A stretch of DNA of 64,000 nucleotides from a virus, in IMG/VR virus record IMGVR_UViG_3300049595_004364, positions 1 through 64,000 of that record; one strand, given 5' to 3'. The position numbers and the translations under genes are program-made. Of this stretch, positions 1-60,190 are shown one piece after another (position 1 is the stretch's first letter; each line of letters starts with the position of its first letter). The notes below the pieces were generated by a model. It did not search any database. It saw only the letters and a program-made list of their open reading frames with translations, and was not told the origin of the DNA.

Positions 1-2217
1 GAAGCACAGCGTGCTCTGGACTGGCGTAAAGAAGGTAATAGAGGTGGAACGCCGGTTGGAGTGGCTAGAGCCCGCCAACTAGTTAATAAACAGAATCTAT
101 CTCCTAGTACGGTAAAAAGGATGTTTTCTTTCTTCTCCCGTCATGAGGTTGATAAACAAGCACAGGGTTTTAGCCCCGGCGAAGAAGGGTACCCCTCACC
201 AGGTAGAGTAGCCTGGGGACTTTGGGGAGGTGATGCAGGTTTCTCCTGGTCTAGAACTAAAGTTAACCAGATGAACCGTATAGATGAGAAAAAAATGTTT
301 GTACTTAATGCTACAATTAAAAAGATTTCTGAGGATGCTGACTATATCACTATACGTGGCATGGCATCAACCAAGGACACTGATAGGGTAGGGGACATTA
401 TGGACCCGGATTGCTGGACAAAAGGCGGTCTGGATAACTATATGAATAATCCCATTATTCTATTTAACCACGACTACAATAGACCGATAGGTAGAGGTAC
501 CGACGTAAAGGTTACGAAAAATGGTTTAGAACTGACTGCTAAAATTAGCAAGGCAGATAGATACATTTCGAAGCTGATTCAAGACGGTGTACTTAGTACC
601 TTCTCTGTTGGGTTTAAAGTTAGGGAAGCAGACCACATGAAAGAAACAGGTGGGTTGCGTATTAAAGATGCGGAACTTTATGAAGTTTCCGTGGTTTCTA
701 TTCCGGCTAACCAAGCCGCAACATTTGAAATAGTAAAATGTTTTAGTCCTACTGAGTTTGAACTTTACAAGAGTGGACTGACTACACCGAAAGGTGAAAG
801 CGAGACGGACGTCTCAGAAAGAAAGATTAATATGAACGAAGAAGAACTCAAGGCTCTGGTTGCTAAGCAAACAGCTGCTGCCGTAAAGATGGCTATGGCT
901 GAAAGAGATGCGGCTGAAGAAAAAGCTCTTAAAGAAAAAGAAGAAGCCGGTAAGCTAGAAGACATCAAGCAAACTGTTGCAGTAGCTGCATCTGGAACTG
1001 AAAAGCTCCTAGCTGAAGTTAAAGCAACTTTTGAAGCTAACCGCGAAGCAACCCAGAGTGAGATTAGCGGCCTTAAAGCTGCTCTTCAAGATCGTGCTGA
1101 AGAAGTTAAAGCTCTTCAGAACTCCAAGCGTCAGTTTGTTGCCTCTGGTACCAACGACTGGAAAAAAGCCCACGAGGGCGAACTGCGTGATGCTTACCTC
1201 CTAGGTAGAGTCACAGGAAAAGGTTGGAACTCAACTTATGGCCAAGAAGTTGTTAACAAAATCAGCAACTTCTCCGGTGCAGAAATTCCTGCTGCTGCAA
1301 GCATTGCACTTTTTGAAACAATCGCCTCTACTTCAATTGAGCGCGACATTCAGAACGAGCTAATTTTAGCTACTCTTTTCCGTGAAATTCCAATGACGTC
1401 TGCAGCTATGACTCTTCCTATCCTGCCTGACGCAGGTTATGCTGAGTTTATCTCAACTAAGAATATCACGAACACGGGTGGAGATGCTCCGCATGGTAAC
1501 CTAGACGAGCGTAGCGATACTGCTGGTTCACCATACGAAGGTATTGACCTTGGTGCAAAGACGCTTACAACGAAGAAACTAGTTTCTCTCACGTTCCTAG
1601 CTAACGAGACAGAAGAAGACGCAATTCTTCCTATTCTCCCGCTTCTAACTGAGTCAATGGTTCGTGCACACTCACGCGCTGTTGAGCGTGCTATGCTTCG
1701 TGGAAGCAGCGGTATTGGTTCCTTCGATGGTCTAACCACAATTGCTACCACTAACTCTGACGTTGTTGCAAACACAACTGCATTTGCTTCTGATGCGCTT
1801 ACATCTGACCACCTCATTGGTCTCCGTAAAGCAATGGGCAAGTACGGCGTACGTCCTAGCGATGTTGTGTACGTTGTTTCTGAGCGTGCATACTTTGAAC
1901 TTCTCGAAGATCCTGAGTTCAAGGATGTCAGCCTAGTTGGTCAGACAGCTACAAAACTCCGTGGTGAAATTGGTAACGTTTATGGTTCACGCGTAGTACT
2001 TTGCGACGAGTTCGTAACGCCTGCCGTTAACGCTTTCTTCGCACTAGCCGTTAACCCGCGTAACTTTGTTGTACCGCGTCTACGTGGTGTAACACTTGAA
2101 TCTCAGTACGTTCCTCGCCTCCAGCACAGAGAGCTTATTGCTACTCAGCGCCTAGGATTCGATGAAATTATTTCTGGTGCTACTGCTGTAACGGCTCGTA
2201 AGTACCACTCAGCTTAA
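1..2217 (+). CDS. Prohead protease-scaffold-major capsid polyprotein (5' partial)
   Basis: The frame is open through the left edge of the window, so the true start lies upstream; the GTG at 61 is probably internal. Residue numbers below count the codon at 61 as 1. Residues 1-70 are a helical phage-head region with a GFSPGEEGYPS motif and a WALWGG-like WGLWGGDAG motif. Residues 80-230 look like an HK97-type (U35) prohead protease, with H137 in FNHDYNRPIGRG, S182 in STFSVGF and E208 in AELYEVSVVSIPANQAA. Residues 258-368 are an Ala/Glu/Lys coiled coil resembling a scaffold. Residues 375-718 look like an HK97-fold capsid protein. An in-frame ATG at 832 could yield the scaffold-capsid part alone. 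Protease, scaffold and shell are usually separate genes or pairs. The inferred role is self-processing during capsid assembly. Confidence 0.88.
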   Translation, partial: EAQRALDWRKEGNRGGTPVGVARARQLVNKQNLSPSTVKRMFSFFSRHEVDKQAQGFSPGEEGYPSPGRVAWGLWGGDAGFSWSRTKVNQMNRIDEKKMFVLNATIKKISEDADYITIRGMASTKDTDRVGDIMDPDCWTKGGLDNYMNNPIILFNHDYNRPIGRGTDVKVTKNGLELTAKISKADRYISKLIQDGVLSTFSVGFKVREADHMKETGGLRIKDAELYEVSVVSIPANQAATFEIVKCFSPTEFELYKSGLTTPKGESETDVSERKINMNEEELKALVAKQTAAAVKMAMAERDAAEEKALKEKEEAGKLEDIKQTVAVAASGTEKLLAEVKATFEANREATQSEISGLKAALQDRAEEVKALQNSKRQFVASGTNDWKKAHEGELRDAYLLGRVTGKGWNSTYGQEVVNKISNFSGAEIPAAASIALFETIASTSIERDIQNELILATLFREIPMTSAAMTLPILPDAGYAEFISTKNITNTGGDAPHGNLDERSDTAGSPYEGIDLGAKTLTTKKLVSLTFLANETEEDAILPILPLLTESMVRAHSRAVERAMLRGSSGIGSFDGLTTIATTNSDVVANTTAFASDALTSDHLIGLRKAMGKYGVRPSDVVYVVSERAYFELLEDPEFKDVSLVGQTATKLRGEIGNVYGSRVVLCDEFVTPAVNAFFALAVNPRNFVVPRLRGVTLESQYVPRLQHRELIATQRLGFDEIISGATAVTARKYHSA

Positions 2218-47712: not shown

Positions 47713-50700
47713 TTAGTAGAAAACTAGTTGCCTGAAGTTTTCTACAGCAGCTTTGCGGTTAACCCACAAGTATTTTAGTCCATCTTTAGTTTTAAACACT
47801 TCCATCATATTACCGATACCGGCGGTACCAGCAAGATATGGGAACACGCCAGCTCCTTGAATCATGAGGGTATTTAGATCTAAATAATATACCCGGTTTG
47901 TAACATCTCTTGTAAAATAGATTCTGTCTAAACCATCATACGCATAAGAACTTCCTGTTGATAGTAATTCAAAGTTTGGTGTAATAGAAGTAAAATAAAA
48001 TAAATCATCAGTTAGATCTATTCTATCTACACCAATTGCAGTTGATCCCCTAAATCTATAAAGATTCCTGCCTCTATTTGCAGGAATTGTACTATTTGCG
48101 TTCCACCTTAAATGGCTACCTGTTCCTGGTACAATTGTAGGTAGGATTGAGTATGTAGAAACAGCAGTCAATGCTGCTACGGCAGTTGCAAAAGTTAAAG
48201 TTCCCGTTCCAGGAGTTACTGCTGTAATTGGTAAATCCTGATTAGCTCCCGTTGACGTAGTAATTCTTAAACGTCTACCAACAAGACTTTGAGCGCTCCA
48301 AGCGGTAAATGTTATTGTACCAGAAACAGCACCTGTGTGTGGTGTATCAACTGTAATAGTTGTTGTACCACCACCACTAACTACCCTTGCACCAAGAGCA
48401 ATTCCTGTTCCTGAAACAAACCAACCATTATGAATAGGGGATCCAATAGCACTTAATGTTATTGTTGTACCAGCACTAGCTCCTGTTCCAGTTGCTGTAG
48501 CCCAAAAACTATTAGTATCAACAAGTGATGTGACAGCCTGAGTTCCTAGGGCTACTCCAGAGAGATAATTTAACCTTTGTCCAGCGTAGTGTTGTCCTAT
48601 CATATCTCTTTTTGCTATGACATATCTGGTTACACCCGCTACTGCACCTGCTAAGGCACCAATGGGGGTCATTATAGACCCATTAGCGGTATTTTGTGCT
48701 ACAAGTTGCATGTGAGTTCCTGCACCTAATAAACCTGTTGCTGCTGCTGCGGGGGCAGCCGCTTGTGCGTAAATCATGGCTGGAACTTGAGTCGGGGCAT
48801 AGAATGTAATTGTGCCAGCAGGTGTTCCTGATGTGGCCGTAGAAAGTACAAGTGTATTTGTACCGGCACCACTAACTACAGTTGTTCCGTTGGCTATATT
48901 AGTACCTGAAACAGACCAGCCAGTAATATAAGTAGGGGTATTACCACTAAGTACAATTGTAGTACCAGTTCCAGAACTATAAGTAGCTGTAGTTGGAAGA
49001 GGCAAATTAGTTGGGTGACTTAATATAAGAGTACCTGCTACTGTACCAGAATTTTGAATAGATACGTTTGGAGTTGTTGTACCTTCTCCTCCAGTAATAT
49101 AAGTACCTATACCAGTGTTTGTTGCTGATGCTAGCCAACCTTTACAGTAGCCAGGAATAGCCTGTGCACTAGTAAAAGTAAAAGTACCCGCACCGCCACC
49201 TGATGGGGTGCCTAACGACACCGGTCTTGGGTACTTTGTGAATACAATAGTACCAGAGGGAGTTCCTGCTCCTGTTAAGTTAAATGTAAGTGTGGTTGTT
49301 CCGGCGCCACTTTGAACTTGAGCGCCTGCAGCAACGTTAGTTCCATAAGCATACCACCCATTAATATTTGATGGAGTAGCTCTGGTAAATGTAGCTGTTG
49401 TTGTAGAACCGCCTGTTGTAAGATCCGCAAAATGTTTTGAAGCATCTGGTAAAACAGAAACGCCAAGAGTTACGTTTTCAGAATATTGATATGTACCAGT
49501 TCCAGCAGCATTTGGGGTATACGTAAATGTTGTAGTTGAAGGTACAGTAGCAATTTGAACTTTTCCTGTGACGTTATACACGTCAGCGGCGGCAGATGTT
49601 ACTCCACGAATAGAAACCCACTGTCCAACTTTTAACATATGCGGCTGAGCCGTTGTTGCTGTAATTGTTGTTGTACCTGCTAATCCAGTAATCGCAATAG
49701 GTTTTTGTTCTGATATAACATGCGTTGCTGTAGAAGTTCCATCTGTTGGTAATGCACAGGCAACCTGTAAAGTACCTTCGTCTAAAATCCTACCATGAGA
49801 TATAAGGTTACAATCAGCTGCACGATATAAAAATGTTTCAGAATTATTACCTACTAGCGCTACCATGTCATCTGTGTAAGCTTGTATTACGTATATAGAG
49901 GTAGAGTCTGGTTGAATATTCCAAGTATCATACAAAACGATACTATCGGTTCCATTAGACATAATCTGTCTCATTTGACCATCGCCTGTTCCTGCTATGA
50001 TACGAAGACCATAGTTAGCCCAGCGATTTACGTCCCATGTTTTTGTAGAATCACTAACTATTCTACCAACTGAAGATGTTAATGTACCGGCATCATAACC
50101 TATAATGCTATATCTACTAGTGCTATCTGGGGCAGTGCTTAAAGTACTCGCAAGAGTTAAAACTGTTCCTGTATTACTAGTAATAGCAGAAATTTGTGCT
50201 CTTCCTGTTCCGGTCCAGATAAACACATAATAACCAGCCCACTGATTAGTGGTCCAACTAGCTGTTGCGTCTGTAATAGTTGTTGTAGTTCCTGCTGTGG
50301 CTTTTCCTGTGTACCAAATTGAAGAATTTTCGGTAAATCTTTCTAGAGAAAGATCTGTTGCAACCACAGGAATACTACTATTGTTAATAGGTTTTGAGTA
50401 CCAAACATCTTCAAGAACGCTATAATATTGTAAGGTTATACCACCTAAAGCAACTGTTGCGCCCGACGCAAGCCAAATGCCACCAGATTGAATAACATAA
50501 CGCGAAGTATTATCAGGAATAACAGTCCAGGGGGTGTCTACTGTAACAGTATGTGCTTCGATTTGATACTGCGTGCCCGCTGCTAGTGCAACACCAAATC
50601 CTGCTGTACCCGCTGTCTGAGACATGGGCATGGCATTTCCATCCCAAGCAAGAACAGCCGGGTCTGCAACTGTTAATACGGTGCTAGTATTATATAAAAT

Positions 50701-51255
50701 TTTACGTGCAGAATTTAAACCTGTACCACCCGTAGTACGAGCAACATAGCCTATCCAGTTATTAACCGGCCAAGCTTTTGCCGCGTCAGTTAAGCTTACT
50801 GAACCCACGGCAGAAGCACCGCCCCAATCTGCTACAGTTGGATCTGAGACAGAAGTAATAATTCTTTCCTGTCCAGCTCCTCTGCCAGATATAATACGAA
50901 TTCTAAATCCCACAGCAGCTCTGTTAGGAAGTCCTGTTGTAATTGTTGTTGATGTTCCACTAATCACACGACCATAATAACCTTGAGCACCTGCAAATTG
51001 CATTGATGACGCAGTAAGAGGTGTAATACCCGGGGATGCTAGCTGCTGATAAGAATCCGCAACAGTATCATAACGCCAAAAGTTAGTGGCGTTTAACAGT
51101 AGGTAGACAAATCTACCAGAAATTTCATTGAAGTCTACATTGTCAGCATTGCAAACGCAGGATAAACCAGCAGTTGCTACCACAGGAAGGGGTCTTGTCC
51201 ACTCCCAGACTGGCAAATCAACTTGCTTAACTAATTGATTAGATACAAGTGCCAT
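47713..51255 (-). CDS. Large repetitive virion protein, minus-strand module
   Basis: 1180 aa, Thr/Gly/Ala/Ser-rich and all-beta. It starts ALVSNQLVKQVDLPVWEWTRPLPVV and contains many short repeats of two kinds: RIISGTGxGQxRxIxSNTxxxLTLxxxWxxxPDSTSxYxI (residues about 90-480) and GWxVSGTNIAxGxxVxSGAGTxTLxxxTxxTGTPSGTITF (residues about 600-930). The C-terminal part (FELLSTGSSYAYDGLDRIYFTRDVTNRVYYLD) looks like propeller or fibre-tip strands. Such proteins form capsid or tail appendages in marine phages. It lies with three other structural genes on the strand opposite the main virion block. Confidence 0.75.
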   Translation of the reverse strand: MALVSNQLVKQVDLPVWEWTRPLPVVATAGLSCVCNADNVDFNEISGRFVYLLLNATNFWRYDTVADSYQQLASPGITPLTASSMQFAGAQGYYGRVISGTSTTITTGLPNRAAVGFRIRIISGRGAGQERIITSVSDPTVADWGGASAVGSVSLTDAAKAWPVNNWIGYVARTTGGTGLNSARKILYNTSTVLTVADPAVLAWDGNAMPMSQTAGTAGFGVALAAGTQYQIEAHTVTVDTPWTVIPDNTSRYVIQSGGIWLASGATVALGGITLQYYSVLEDVWYSKPINNSSIPVVATDLSLERFTENSSIWYTGKATAGTTTTITDATASWTTNQWAGYYVFIWTGTGRAQISAITSNTGTVLTLASTLSTAPDSTSRYSIIGYDAGTLTSSVGRIVSDSTKTWDVNRWANYGLRIIAGTGDGQMRQIMSNGTDSIVLYDTWNIQPDSTSIYVIQAYTDDMVALVGNNSETFLYRAADCNLISHGRILDEGTLQVACALPTDGTSTATHVISEQKPIAITGLAGTTTITATTAQPHMLKVGQWVSIRGVTSAAADVYNVTGKVQIATVPSTTTFTYTPNAAGTGTYQYSENVTLGVSVLPDASKHFADLTTGGSTTTATFTRATPSNINGWYAYGTNVAAGAQVQSGAGTTTLTFNLTGAGTPSGTIVFTKYPRPVSLGTPSGGGAGTFTFTSAQAIPGYCKGWLASATNTGIGTYITGGEGTTTPNVSIQNSGTVAGTLILSHPTNLPLPTTATYSSGTGTTIVLSGNTPTYITGWSVSGTNIANGTTVVSGAGTNTLVLSTATSGTPAGTITFYAPTQVPAMIYAQAAAPAAAATGLLGAGTHMQLVAQNTANGSIMTPIGALAGAVAGVTRYVIAKRDMIGQHYAGQRLNYLSGVALGTQAVTSLVDTNSFWATATGTGASAGTTITLSAIGSPIHNGWFVSGTGIALGARVVSGGGTTTITVDTPHTGAVSGTITFTAWSAQSLVGRRLRITTSTGANQDLPITAVTPGTGTLTFATAVAALTAVSTYSILPTIVPGTGSHLRWNANSTIPANRGRNLYRFRGSTAIGVDRIDLTDDLFYFTSITPNFELLSTGSSYAYDGLDRIYFTRDVTNRVYYLDLNTLMIQGAGVFPYLAGTAGIGNMMEVFKTKDGLKYLWVNRKAAVENFRQLVFY

Positions 51256-53828: not shown

Positions 53829-53922
53829 TGGTGCCCCCGATAGGATTCGAACCTATGACGCTCTCTAATCTGGAGACGATGCTGGATATAAGCCAGGTGT
53901 TTTACCTCTAAACTACAGGGGC
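53829..53922 (-). tRNA. tRNA with anticodon TAT (Ile-type) and long variable arm
   Basis: A 94-base cloverleaf: acceptor GCCCCTG/CGGGGGC with encoded ACCA, D arm GTTT/AAAC, anticodon loop CTTATAT (anticodon TAT, reading AUA), and T arm ATAGG-TTCGAAT-CCTAT. The region between anticodon stem and T stem is 24 bases and contains a TCTC/GAGA mini-stem flanked by CGTC direct repeats. Long variable arms belong to Leu, Ser and Tyr tRNAs, not Ile. The anticodon stem has one C-C mismatch at its top. CCA is encoded. Confidence 0.82.
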
Positions 53923-57555: not shown

Positions 57556-57846
57556 CTACTTCTCCGTTGCTGTGTCTTCAAGGTACTTCCAGCCTTCCTG
57601 CAAGAGTTTAATATAAGTGTCTAGTTCTTGCATATTTGACCTATACTTATCAAAGTTTTCGGCATCTAGTGCAAAGTACTCTTGCTCTGGTAAATATTGC
57701 CAGGTTAGTTCTTCTAGAGCTACTTCTGGTCTTGTTGGCGCATCAACAACATATACGGGAACTTCCACATATTTAGTTGTTGTGCACGCCCCCAAAAATA
57801 CTGGAAGAATTAGTGATGCTGGTAATAAATTCGTTTGTATCTTCAT
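57556..57846 (-). CDS. Outer-membrane spanin lipoprotein (Rz1-like)
   Basis: 96 aa with a signal sequence and lipobox LGAC (C21), then CTTTKYVEVPVYVVDAPTRP. Pro/Val-rich mature part typical of o-spanins, with a C-terminal helix (NMQELDTYIKLLQEGWKYLED). It overlaps the end of the i-spanin gene by 74 bases in another frame, the classic Rz/Rz1 overlapping arrangement. The pair would fuse inner and outer membranes at lysis of a Gram-negative host. Confidence 0.85.
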   Translation of the reverse strand: MKIQTNLLPASLILPVFLGACTTTKYVEVPVYVVDAPTRPEVALEELTWQYLPEQEYFALDAENFDKYRSNMQELDTYIKLLQEGWKYLEDTATEK

Positions 57847-58153
57847 TTGCGGTCTCTACTATCACCTCTGCTGGCGCTGTCTTTACAATCTCTCTGTACC
57901 GTATAACAGGCTTTTCAACAATTTTTATTTGTTCTACTCTACTATTATATTCTTCTAGCTTTTTAGCTTGATCGTCTATAATCTTTTTTTCAAACTTAAT
58001 ACGCGCTTGAAGCTCTTCTATTGTATCAAGCTGCGTGTTTAATAAGGCTTTTTGTGTCGCTATTGTTTCACTAAAGCTATTGCTCTGAGCATAAAAGTAG
58101 TAACACGCTAGCGACAAAGCTGCAAAAGAGCCACTAATTATCCAAATTTTCAT
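57773..58153 (-). CDS. Inner-membrane spanin (Rz-like)
   Basis: 126 aa. An N-terminal membrane segment at residues 3-22 (IWIISGSFAALSLACYYFYA) is followed by a long coiled coil (residues 28-80, ALLNTQLDTIEELQARIKFEKKI) and a Pro-containing C-terminal region. This matches i-spanins, which bridge the periplasm to the o-spanin encoded within and after its 3' end. It overlaps the 85-aa membrane protein gene by 20 bases. Confidence 0.86.
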   Translation of the reverse strand: MKIWIISGSFAALSLACYYFYAQSNSFSETIATQKALLNTQLDTIEELQARIKFEKKIIDDQAKKLEEYNSRVEQIKIVEKPVIRYREIVKTAPAEVIVETANEDTNEFITSITNSSSIFGGVHNN

Positions 58154-58865: not shown

Positions 58866-59060
58866 TTACGGCGTAACTTCAGTTACAACTTCTTCAGTAA
58901 CTTCAGTGGGGATTTCAGCCACAACTTCTTCGGCTACAGCTTCCGCTACAACTTCTTCAGCTACAACTTCCGTTACAACTTCTTCAGCTACAACTTCTTG
59001 AGTAGGCTCAGCACAAGCGGCCAGTGCAGCCAATGCGGCTACTGCAAATACAAATTTCAT
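58866..59060 (-). CDS. Lipoprotein with Val/Glu repeat tail
   Basis: 64 aa. A typical lipoprotein signal, MKFVFAVAALAALAACAEP, with lipobox LAAC (C16), is followed by about 45 residues of EVVAEEVV/TEVVAEE repeats only. The tail is highly acidic and could be an extended beta or disordered rod on the outer membrane. Its ribosome binding site (AGGAG) lies right at the 3' end of the tmRNA gene. Its role may be surface modification or superinfection exclusion; nothing firm is known. Confidence 0.75.
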   Translation of the reverse strand: MKFVFAVAALAALAACAEPTQEVVAEEVVTEVVAEEVVAEAVAEEVVAEIPTEVTEEVVTEVTP

Positions 59061-59070
59061 TTTTTCTCCT

Positions 59071-59397
59071 ATGGGTTAAGCGGGTCCGTTCTGTTGCTAG
59101 GTGGAACCCATACCCCCGAAAATTAAGCGGCTAGCGCGTAATCCTCAACAATGCTGTTATCGTTTGCATTTATAACGTTTGATCTTTTAGGGAAATCACT
59201 CCCAGTTGTCCACTATCGTTGTTCGTCTGTCGAAACTATATCTGGCCCATCAAATATATACTACTGCGCTACATCCACATGCGCGTACTTATGACTCCAT
59301 GCTTCCAACCACTCTGGAGTACCCTTTGGGTAGGGTAGTATATATTTGGTGGACCAGCTGGGTACTGCCCCCAGGTCCAAATCGACTTATTGTCGCT
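59071..59397 (-). ncRNA. ssrA: Circularly permuted tmRNA (ssrA)
   Basis: The strand reads first an acceptor piece: GTCGATTTGGAC, a CTGGG-GGCAGTA-CCCAG T-arm-like hairpin, then CTGGTCC-A-CCA ending at 59347. A 98-base spacer follows. The coding piece begins at 59248 with GGGCCAGATATAGTTTCGAC, the conserved tmRNA 5' end. GGGCCAG pairs with CTGGTCC as the acceptor stem. After TAAAT comes the tag frame 59167-59123: GCA AAC GAT AAC ... GCT TAA, giving ANDNSIVEDYALAA-stop. The order acceptor-spacer-coding is that of alphaproteobacterial two-piece tmRNA. It would rescue stalled ribosomes and mark the products for ClpXP-type proteolysis. Exact 5' and 3' ends are estimates. Confidence 0.93.
59247..59352 (-). 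repeat. Inverted repeat extending the tmRNA acceptor stem
   Basis: CCATCAAATATATACTAC (59247-59264) and GTAGTATATATTTGGTGG (59335-59352) pair with one wobble. They continue the acceptor stem of the tmRNA outward into the spacer. The precursor would thus fold into a long helix closed by a loop that holds smaller hairpins (ACCCT/AGGGT, CTCCA/TGGAG, GCGC/GCGC). This is expected for a permuted tmRNA awaiting processing. Confidence 0.85.
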
Positions 59398-59694
59398 TCA
59401 TACAACTATATCTTCTCTAGGAACAATTCCAAGAGAGGATTGCTGGTTACTAATTACTACGTTCATAGCTATATCAGACGAATCTTCTACAGTACATAGA
59501 ATTAGTGCAATACTATCTATTGCTTTAACTATATCTTCTTTATCTAGACCAAGTTTACTTTGGTGGATAAATAGTTTGTGAGAGAAGTTCGCGGCGTACT
59601 GAGCGTACACCGCGTTCATCACATGCAGTTCCTGAGCTAGCTCATTCACTTCTGCCGGCCAAGCCGACGGATTACCTATAATTTCTTTTAGCAT
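59398..59694 (-). CDS. Hypothetical helical protein, 98 aa
   Basis: I take the ATG at 59694, which follows the TAA of the Ig-like gene by one base, giving MLKEIIGNPSAWPAEVNELAQ. The body is helical (LHVMNAVYAQYAANFSHKLFIHQSKLG, then DIVKAIDSIALILCTVED), and its stop abuts the tmRNA acceptor piece. The helical pattern resembles small phage proteins found in virion or packaging regions. Function is unknown. The tmRNA may be co-transcribed with this gene because no promoter is visible between them. Confidence 0.68.
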   Translation of the reverse strand: MLKEIIGNPSAWPAEVNELAQELHVMNAVYAQYAANFSHKLFIHQSKLGLDKEDIVKAIDSIALILCTVEDSSDIAMNVVISNQQSSLGIVPREDIVV

Positions 59695-59695
59695 A

Positions 59696-60190
59696 TTACA
59701 CATTCGTATTAGTGATAGTGAAAGTTCCTGAGGCAGTACGCCCATAAATATCCGCTGCTGTTACTCTAACAGTTATAACTTCTGTTGCAGTAACTGCTGG
59801 TCTAGTACCTGCAAAGGTTCTAGTTGATGGCGTAAACGTAATCCACGTTGGTAGTGGTGCACCACCATCTAGTGTTGCAGTATACGTAATAGGAGCAGCT
59901 TCAGGGTCGTTGAAAGTATTCAGCGCAAAAGTGTAGTTGAGAGCCGAAAGTTCATTGCCTGTTTGGTTAACAAGAGCATTCTGTAGGGTAGGGGCTACAT
60001 TTACAGCTCTACCTGCATAAATAAGAGAATGTTTCATACCTCTTATAAAGCTACCAAATACGCGTCTAACACGCATTGGTGTCGCACCGGTATTTAAGGC
60101 TACAAATTCTGCTCGTGTTGGCACAGCGCCAATATCGTTGGAAACAAAAGATGCTGCAATGGTATCTCTAAGTCTAGAAAGTCTACCCAT
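59696..60190 (-). CDS. Ig-like (He_PIG-type) domain protein
   Basis: 164 aa. The N-terminal 70 residues contain a basic stretch (MRVRRVFGSFIRGMKHSLIYAG). The C-terminal 95 residues are a cadherin-like Ig domain: NYTFALNTFNDPEAAPITYTATLDGGAPLPTWITFTPSTRTFAGTRP, then ITVRVTAADIYGRTASGTFTI. The pattern P-L-P-x-W-I-x-F-x-x-x-x-R-x-F-x-G-x-P is typical of putative Ig (He_PIG) modules. Phage virions use such domains as surface decoration. It overlaps the 56-aa gene by one base. Confidence 0.78.
   Translation of the reverse strand: MGRLSRLRDTIAASFVSNDIGAVPTRAEFVALNTGATPMRVRRVFGSFIRGMKHSLIYAGRAVNVAPTLQNALVNQTGNELSALNYTFALNTFNDPEAAPITYTATLDGGAPLPTWITFTPSTRTFAGTRPAVTATEVITVRVTAADIYGRTASGTFTITNTNV

Follow-up and report, generated by a model that had tools for sequence, protein, structure and literature searches.

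A complete permuted tmRNA of alphaproteobacterial type in a T5-like phage record, and a helix closing the spacers of phage permuted tmRNA genes

The window, by which the whole analysed stretch of 64,000 nucleotides is meant, carries on its minus strand a permuted tmRNA gene at about 59409-59079, recognized by RF04321, RF01849 and ARAGORN, in which an acceptor piece is followed by an intervening spacer and then by a coding piece. The acceptor piece (59347..59409, minus strand, delimited from the sequence and the covariance-model alignment) comprises the 5' strand of a joining helix, a D-like part, a T arm, the acceptor 3' strand, A73 and CCA. Its joining-helix strand AGTTGT (59402..59407, minus strand), which according to the ORF list falls within the end of the upstream ORF 59398-59745, pairs in the covariance-model alignment with ACAACT at 59204-59209, and the two pieces are thereby joined by the helix AGUUGU/ACAACU. 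The T arm CTGGG-GGCAGTA-CCCAG (59358..59374, minus strand) forms 5/5 pairs in the same alignment. The acceptor 3' strand CTGGTCC (59351..59357, minus strand) is directly followed by A73 at 59350 and by an encoded CCA at 59349-59347, and together with the acceptor 5' strand GGGCCAG (59242..59248, minus strand) it forms a 7-bp acceptor stem with 7/7 pairs, including the alanine-identity wobble G3.U70. Between the two lies the spacer of 98 nt (59249..59346, minus strand), which is expected to be removed and whose predicted fold is a long stem carrying three inner arms. The coding piece, before which (ahead of 59248) an RNase P cut is predicted, continues after GGGCCAG with ATATAGTTTCGAC up to the resume codon GCA at 59167, from where the tag reading frame ANDNSIVEDYALAA-stop (59123..59167, minus strand) runs open to its stop codon. 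Further downstream, the conserved alphaproteobacterial 3' motif ACCTAGCAACAGAA (consensus ACCuGGCAACAGAA) can be located at 59089..59102 (minus strand) from the RF01849 alignment.

The identity of the gene was established with two Rfam covariance models, both of which aligned to it over their full length. RF04321 (tmRNA_permuted) gave 113.1 bits against a cut-off of 47 (E=2.7e-21 for the 64 kb searched against 4227 families; match 59123-59407) and RF01849 (alpha_tmRNA) gave 108.8 bits against a cut-off of 50 (E=9e-29; match 59079-59463), with alpha being the best tmRNA subtype. ARAGORN independently called a permuted tmRNA (tmRNA* 59032-59439) with the tag ANDNSIVEDYALAA. A sequence-only reading of this DNA had proposed the alphaproteobacterial permuted order with an own tag, naming the acceptor 3' strand, spacer, coding start, resume codon and tag with stop on the minus strand as well as the 7-bp pairing of the acceptor strands, and had suggested a covariance-model search as a check; each of these elements is present and the search returned the above-threshold scores given here. 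The right end of its limits, 59071-59397, falls about 12 nt short and omits the joining-helix strand at 59407-59402. The permuted order sets the gene apart from the one-piece Bxz1 type, whose coding piece is enclosed in a single continuous RNA with an acceptor strand at either end. The same reading also held that truncated products would be marked with a variant tag; a changed function of the tag finds no support, as the tag retains both the ANDN start and the ALAA end. The gene is thus a complete, phage-encoded, circularly permuted tmRNA of alphaproteobacterial type.

The record from which the window derives is a linear IMG/VR virus contig of 67,321 bases. It encodes a capsid/protease fusion, a tape measure protein, a major tail protein, SbcCD, helicases, spanins and a T5-like DNA polymerase, in addition to the ribonucleotide reductase large subunit, ThyX, PhoH and an NAD-dependent ligase; judged by this gene content it is a T5-like dsDNA phage and not misfiled host DNA. 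The nearest named relatives of the DNA polymerase are T5-like phages at 44% identity, and viral contigs reach about 61%. The tmRNA gene is one of a series of minus-strand genes; at its 5' end it shares sequence with the final codons of the upstream ORF 59398-59745, and its 3' end is followed by a start codon at 59060 with a ribosome-binding site. Since the gene is bounded in this manner, its transcription within a minus-strand operon is probable. Neither SmpB nor SspB could be recognized in the 67 kb of this possibly incomplete record, so trans-translation would have to use the proteins of the host. The gene relatives do not agree on a host, as NrdA is nearest to pelagiphages while polymerase and capsid are nearest to enterobacterial or Aeromonas T5-like phages; the one clue to an alphaproteobacterium is the type of the tmRNA.

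Several other features of the window may be recorded here. Directly after the tmRNA lies a predicted 64-aa lipoprotein with VVAEE/VVTE repeats and no family match (58866-59060, minus strand), and a lysis module, made up of two Rz-like spanin genes that overlap (57556-58153, minus strand), is close by at 1-1.5 kb downstream. A 94-nt tRNA with anticodon TAT (53829-53922, minus strand; called Ile) has an unusually long variable region of ~20 nt and adjoins a tRNA-Ser(TGA). An ORF of 718 aa (61-2217, plus strand) combines capsid protein and head maturation protease, which are two annotated genes in the T5-like relatives listed, and a 1180-aa ORF near the tail-fibre gene (47713-51255, minus strand) gave no Pfam or PHROGs match.

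The spacer of the gene folds better than 200/200 shuffled versions (z = -3.8), because its ends form a 12-bp helix, with AATATATACTAC (59335..59346, minus strand) as the 5' strand and GTAGTATATATT (59253..59264, minus strand) as the 3' strand. This long stem was at first considered peculiar to the window phage, a notion that was abandoned because viral genes generally have it. IMG/VR was scanned with two patterns, and one parser read from these scans at least 56 (named phages added) and at least 97 distinct permuted genes; for the first sample the search motif was one that is rare in hosts (2/115), for the second it was a T-arm motif, and the helix comparison is based on the second. Other viral genes whose spacer is 37 nt or longer have its first 11 bases paired with positions -5 to -15 ahead of the coding piece, as exemplified by the loci L036, L085, L093, L385 and L404. 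The register is fixed, with 91-97% of cells pairing against 30-60% when the strands are slid by 1-2. The paired fraction, computed for 105 distinct end pairs, amounts to 0.927; exchanging the 3' ends among genes lowers it to 0.637 (sd 0.010, maximum 0.673 in 2000 exchanges). Five or more standard pair types occur at most helix positions. The helix therefore reflects real covariation, beyond what a shared consensus would give, and the window gene fits it with 12/12 closing-helix pairs in the viral register.

Between this helix and the coding piece of the window gene stands the leader TGAT (59249..59252, minus strand; positions -4 to -1), which faces A73-C-C-A and thereby allows pairing of A73, C75 and A76, so that an almost unbroken helix of ~22 bp would span both cut sites. 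TGAT precedes the coding piece in 66/97 viral against 11/104 host genes (same T-arm filter, among the matches listed). The closing helix occurs in 69/97 viral genes (T-arm filter, matches listed) against 15/104 alphaproteobacterial genes (Fisher p about 1e-16, a value that ignores relatedness), and one of the later sets of host genes was selected for long spacers, a bias favouring the hosts. The viral form of the helix is also found in some host genes (e.g. L500 and L501), and it may therefore descend from particular host clades; in one betaproteobacterial gene (L344) a spacer stem likewise continues the acceptor stem. It is well supported that a helix of ~11 bp, continuing the acceptor stem, closes the spacers of phage permuted tmRNAs.

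This conserved precursor helix may be the new part of the present work. The structure lines of RF01849, RF04321 and RF01850 in Rfam leave the spacer unpaired, and no description of the helix was found in the literature, of which our coverage for the two-piece tmRNA lineage papers is incomplete, apart from a mention of complementary sequences in the Hodgkinia spacer of 129 nt (PMC6581868). A tRNA or riboswitch fragment was considered for the three inner arms of the window spacer, but Rfam at E up to 1 has no match inside the spacer and the inner parts differ between genes, so that the claim is confined to the closing helix. On the cutting of permuted precursors, a review goes no further than naming RNase P and tRNase Z as probably involved (PMC3985003). 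The closing helix is most likely a processing signal that would present both cut sites. Tentatively, and with odds that we put slightly below even, the ~11-bp helix and TGAT of phage permuted tmRNAs could be a built-in processing signal, for example for RNase P plus an RNase III-like enzyme or a tRNA 3' nuclease, sustaining maturation across hosts, while most alphaproteobacterial chromosomal spacers are short and unstructured. The helix offers a testable handle on how a permuted precursor becomes two pieces.

Phage-encoded permuted tmRNA is in itself already known. The sequence-only reading was aware of no well-studied permuted phage version, and this claim of novelty fails because both the Melnitz ssrA gene and a set of predicted two-piece tmRNAs from a 2021 phage database had been published in 2022 (PMC9004378); the set comprises 53 cases among 133 unique phage tmRNA structures, 50 of them aquatic (PMC9004378). 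A tmRNA database holds 79 unique phage sequences (PMC11915505), and phages of Bradyrhizobium elkanii also carry tmRNAs (PMC12656738). Melnitz ssrA (MZ577097, PMC9004378), from a marine Methylophilales phage, is likewise a permuted two-piece tmRNA of alphaproteobacterial type, scores 106.7 bits with RF01849 and 113.4 bits with RF04321, encodes the tag ANDNYVPVDYALAA and has a spacer closed by a helix with TGAT like that of the window gene. The two phages differ in that Melnitz is a T4-like myophage of 141 kb and the window record is T5-like, and in that a glutamine riboswitch follows the gene in Melnitz while none was found in the window.

Our scans place permuted tmRNAs in well over 100 IMG/VR contigs and in isolated phages, most of these genes lacking such annotation. 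Among isolated phages, the gene is annotated in Melnitz and is also found in RcSimone-Hastad (Rhodobacter phage; L247:2474-2761), Phosso (Sinorhizobium phage; L248:1892-2494, spanning about 600 nt) and the Caulobacter phages CcrColossus (L249:2472-2765) and CcrBL9 (L251:2479-2784). For none of these four does the deposited annotation have a tmRNA at that position, although the genes score above the Rfam tmRNA_permuted cut-offs, with 73-113 bits; their tags differ from that of the window. Permuted tmRNA is near-universal in the host class, with 349/385 alphaproteobacterial genomes above the cut-off. The chromosomal genes of these bacteria (e.g. Caulobacter) share with the window gene the order of pieces, the G3.U70 stem, T arm and joining helix, a tag of the form ANDN...LAA and the 3' motif; they differ in the spacer, which has a median length of about 32 nt in hosts (98 nt in the window) and is closed by the helix in 16/120 host genes. 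The beta-type permuted tmRNA (RF01850) has the same permuted order but differs in the joining region, tag and 3' part, and L344, the single host example of it considered here, also has the spacer stem that continues the acceptor stem.

In the viral genes, G3.U70 is retained in 48/49, and compensatory changes occur in the acceptor stem at position 4 (G-C/C-G), position 5 (G-C/A-U/C-G) and position 6 (C-G/U-A), and the unusual stem GGGCCAG/CTGGTCC of the window is one such compensated variant. A tree built from 100 genes and 161 columns pairs the window gene with Melnitz at support 97/89, although its own branch is long (0.8) and the two sequences are well separated (path 0.97), owing to which the gene may be decaying faster or have an altered function. 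A split of viruses and hosts into two lineages on this tree was not accepted, as the first viral sample had been drawn with the host-rare motif (2/115).

The long branch bears on whether the gene is still in use. Phage integration at tmRNA genes is frequent, and prophages have been reported to contain fragments of ssrA (PMC9004378), so that the window gene could be a decaying remnant or passenger of a host ssrA, left for example by imprecise prophage excision or by an integration site, and functionless in the phage. The absence of a close phage relative with the gene would agree with this: no tmRNA match was obtained in relatives by DNA polymerase or capsid (about 61%) among 68 partial contigs, most of them short fragments (0/68). 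Searches for relatives by way of the upstream gene and of tag patterns gave none, and the locus has no DNA similarity to named phages at E 1e-5. We nevertheless regard an origin as remnant or passenger as improbable, given that the G3.U70 stem, CCA, joining helix, open tag frame with ALAA end and 3' motif are all intact, that the whole gene sits inside a phage operon, that its nearest neighbour on the tree is a phage gene and not a host gene, and that its spacer helix fits the viral pattern at 12/12 pairs.

The window gene very probably encodes a working tmRNA: transcribed with its operon, cut in two and alanylated, it would act together with host SmpB in releasing ribosomes stalled on broken mRNA and in tagging their products for host proteases. 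Following established tmRNA biology for processing, charging and tagging, a single precursor would be transcribed, probably as part of the minus-strand operon, and the spacer excised from between CCA and GGGCCAG; the resulting acceptor and coding pieces would stay associated through the acceptor stem and the joining helix. Host AlaRS would then charge the molecule by virtue of G3.U70 and A73, and host SmpB and EF-Tu would carry it to stalled ribosomes, where ANDNSIVEDYALAA would be appended, the truncated product destroyed by host ClpXP-type proteases and the ribosome freed for phage translation. A benefit during phage takeover, when mRNA is degraded, is plausible; the statement of the sequence-only reading that the phage controls ribosome rescue goes as far as inference only. 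The opposite role, that of a decoy which binds SmpB or AlaRS and inhibits host trans-translation without productive tagging, has a parallel in mycobacteriophage DS6A, whose tmRNA is tag-less, and a phage tmRNA without a tag frame was reported to inhibit the endogenous tmRNA when expressed in E. coli (PMC11915505). Such a decoy would have no need of the full tag frame, conserved resume region and degron of the window gene, and we consider this role very improbable.

As a side observation on tags, those encoded by the tmRNAs of Micavibrio MAGs (L157, L159 and L165) are long and contain the ANDN/SNDN motif repeatedly (e.g. ANDNFAFVAANDNSVVSGEGKIAA), which gives the impression of a duplicated tag start.
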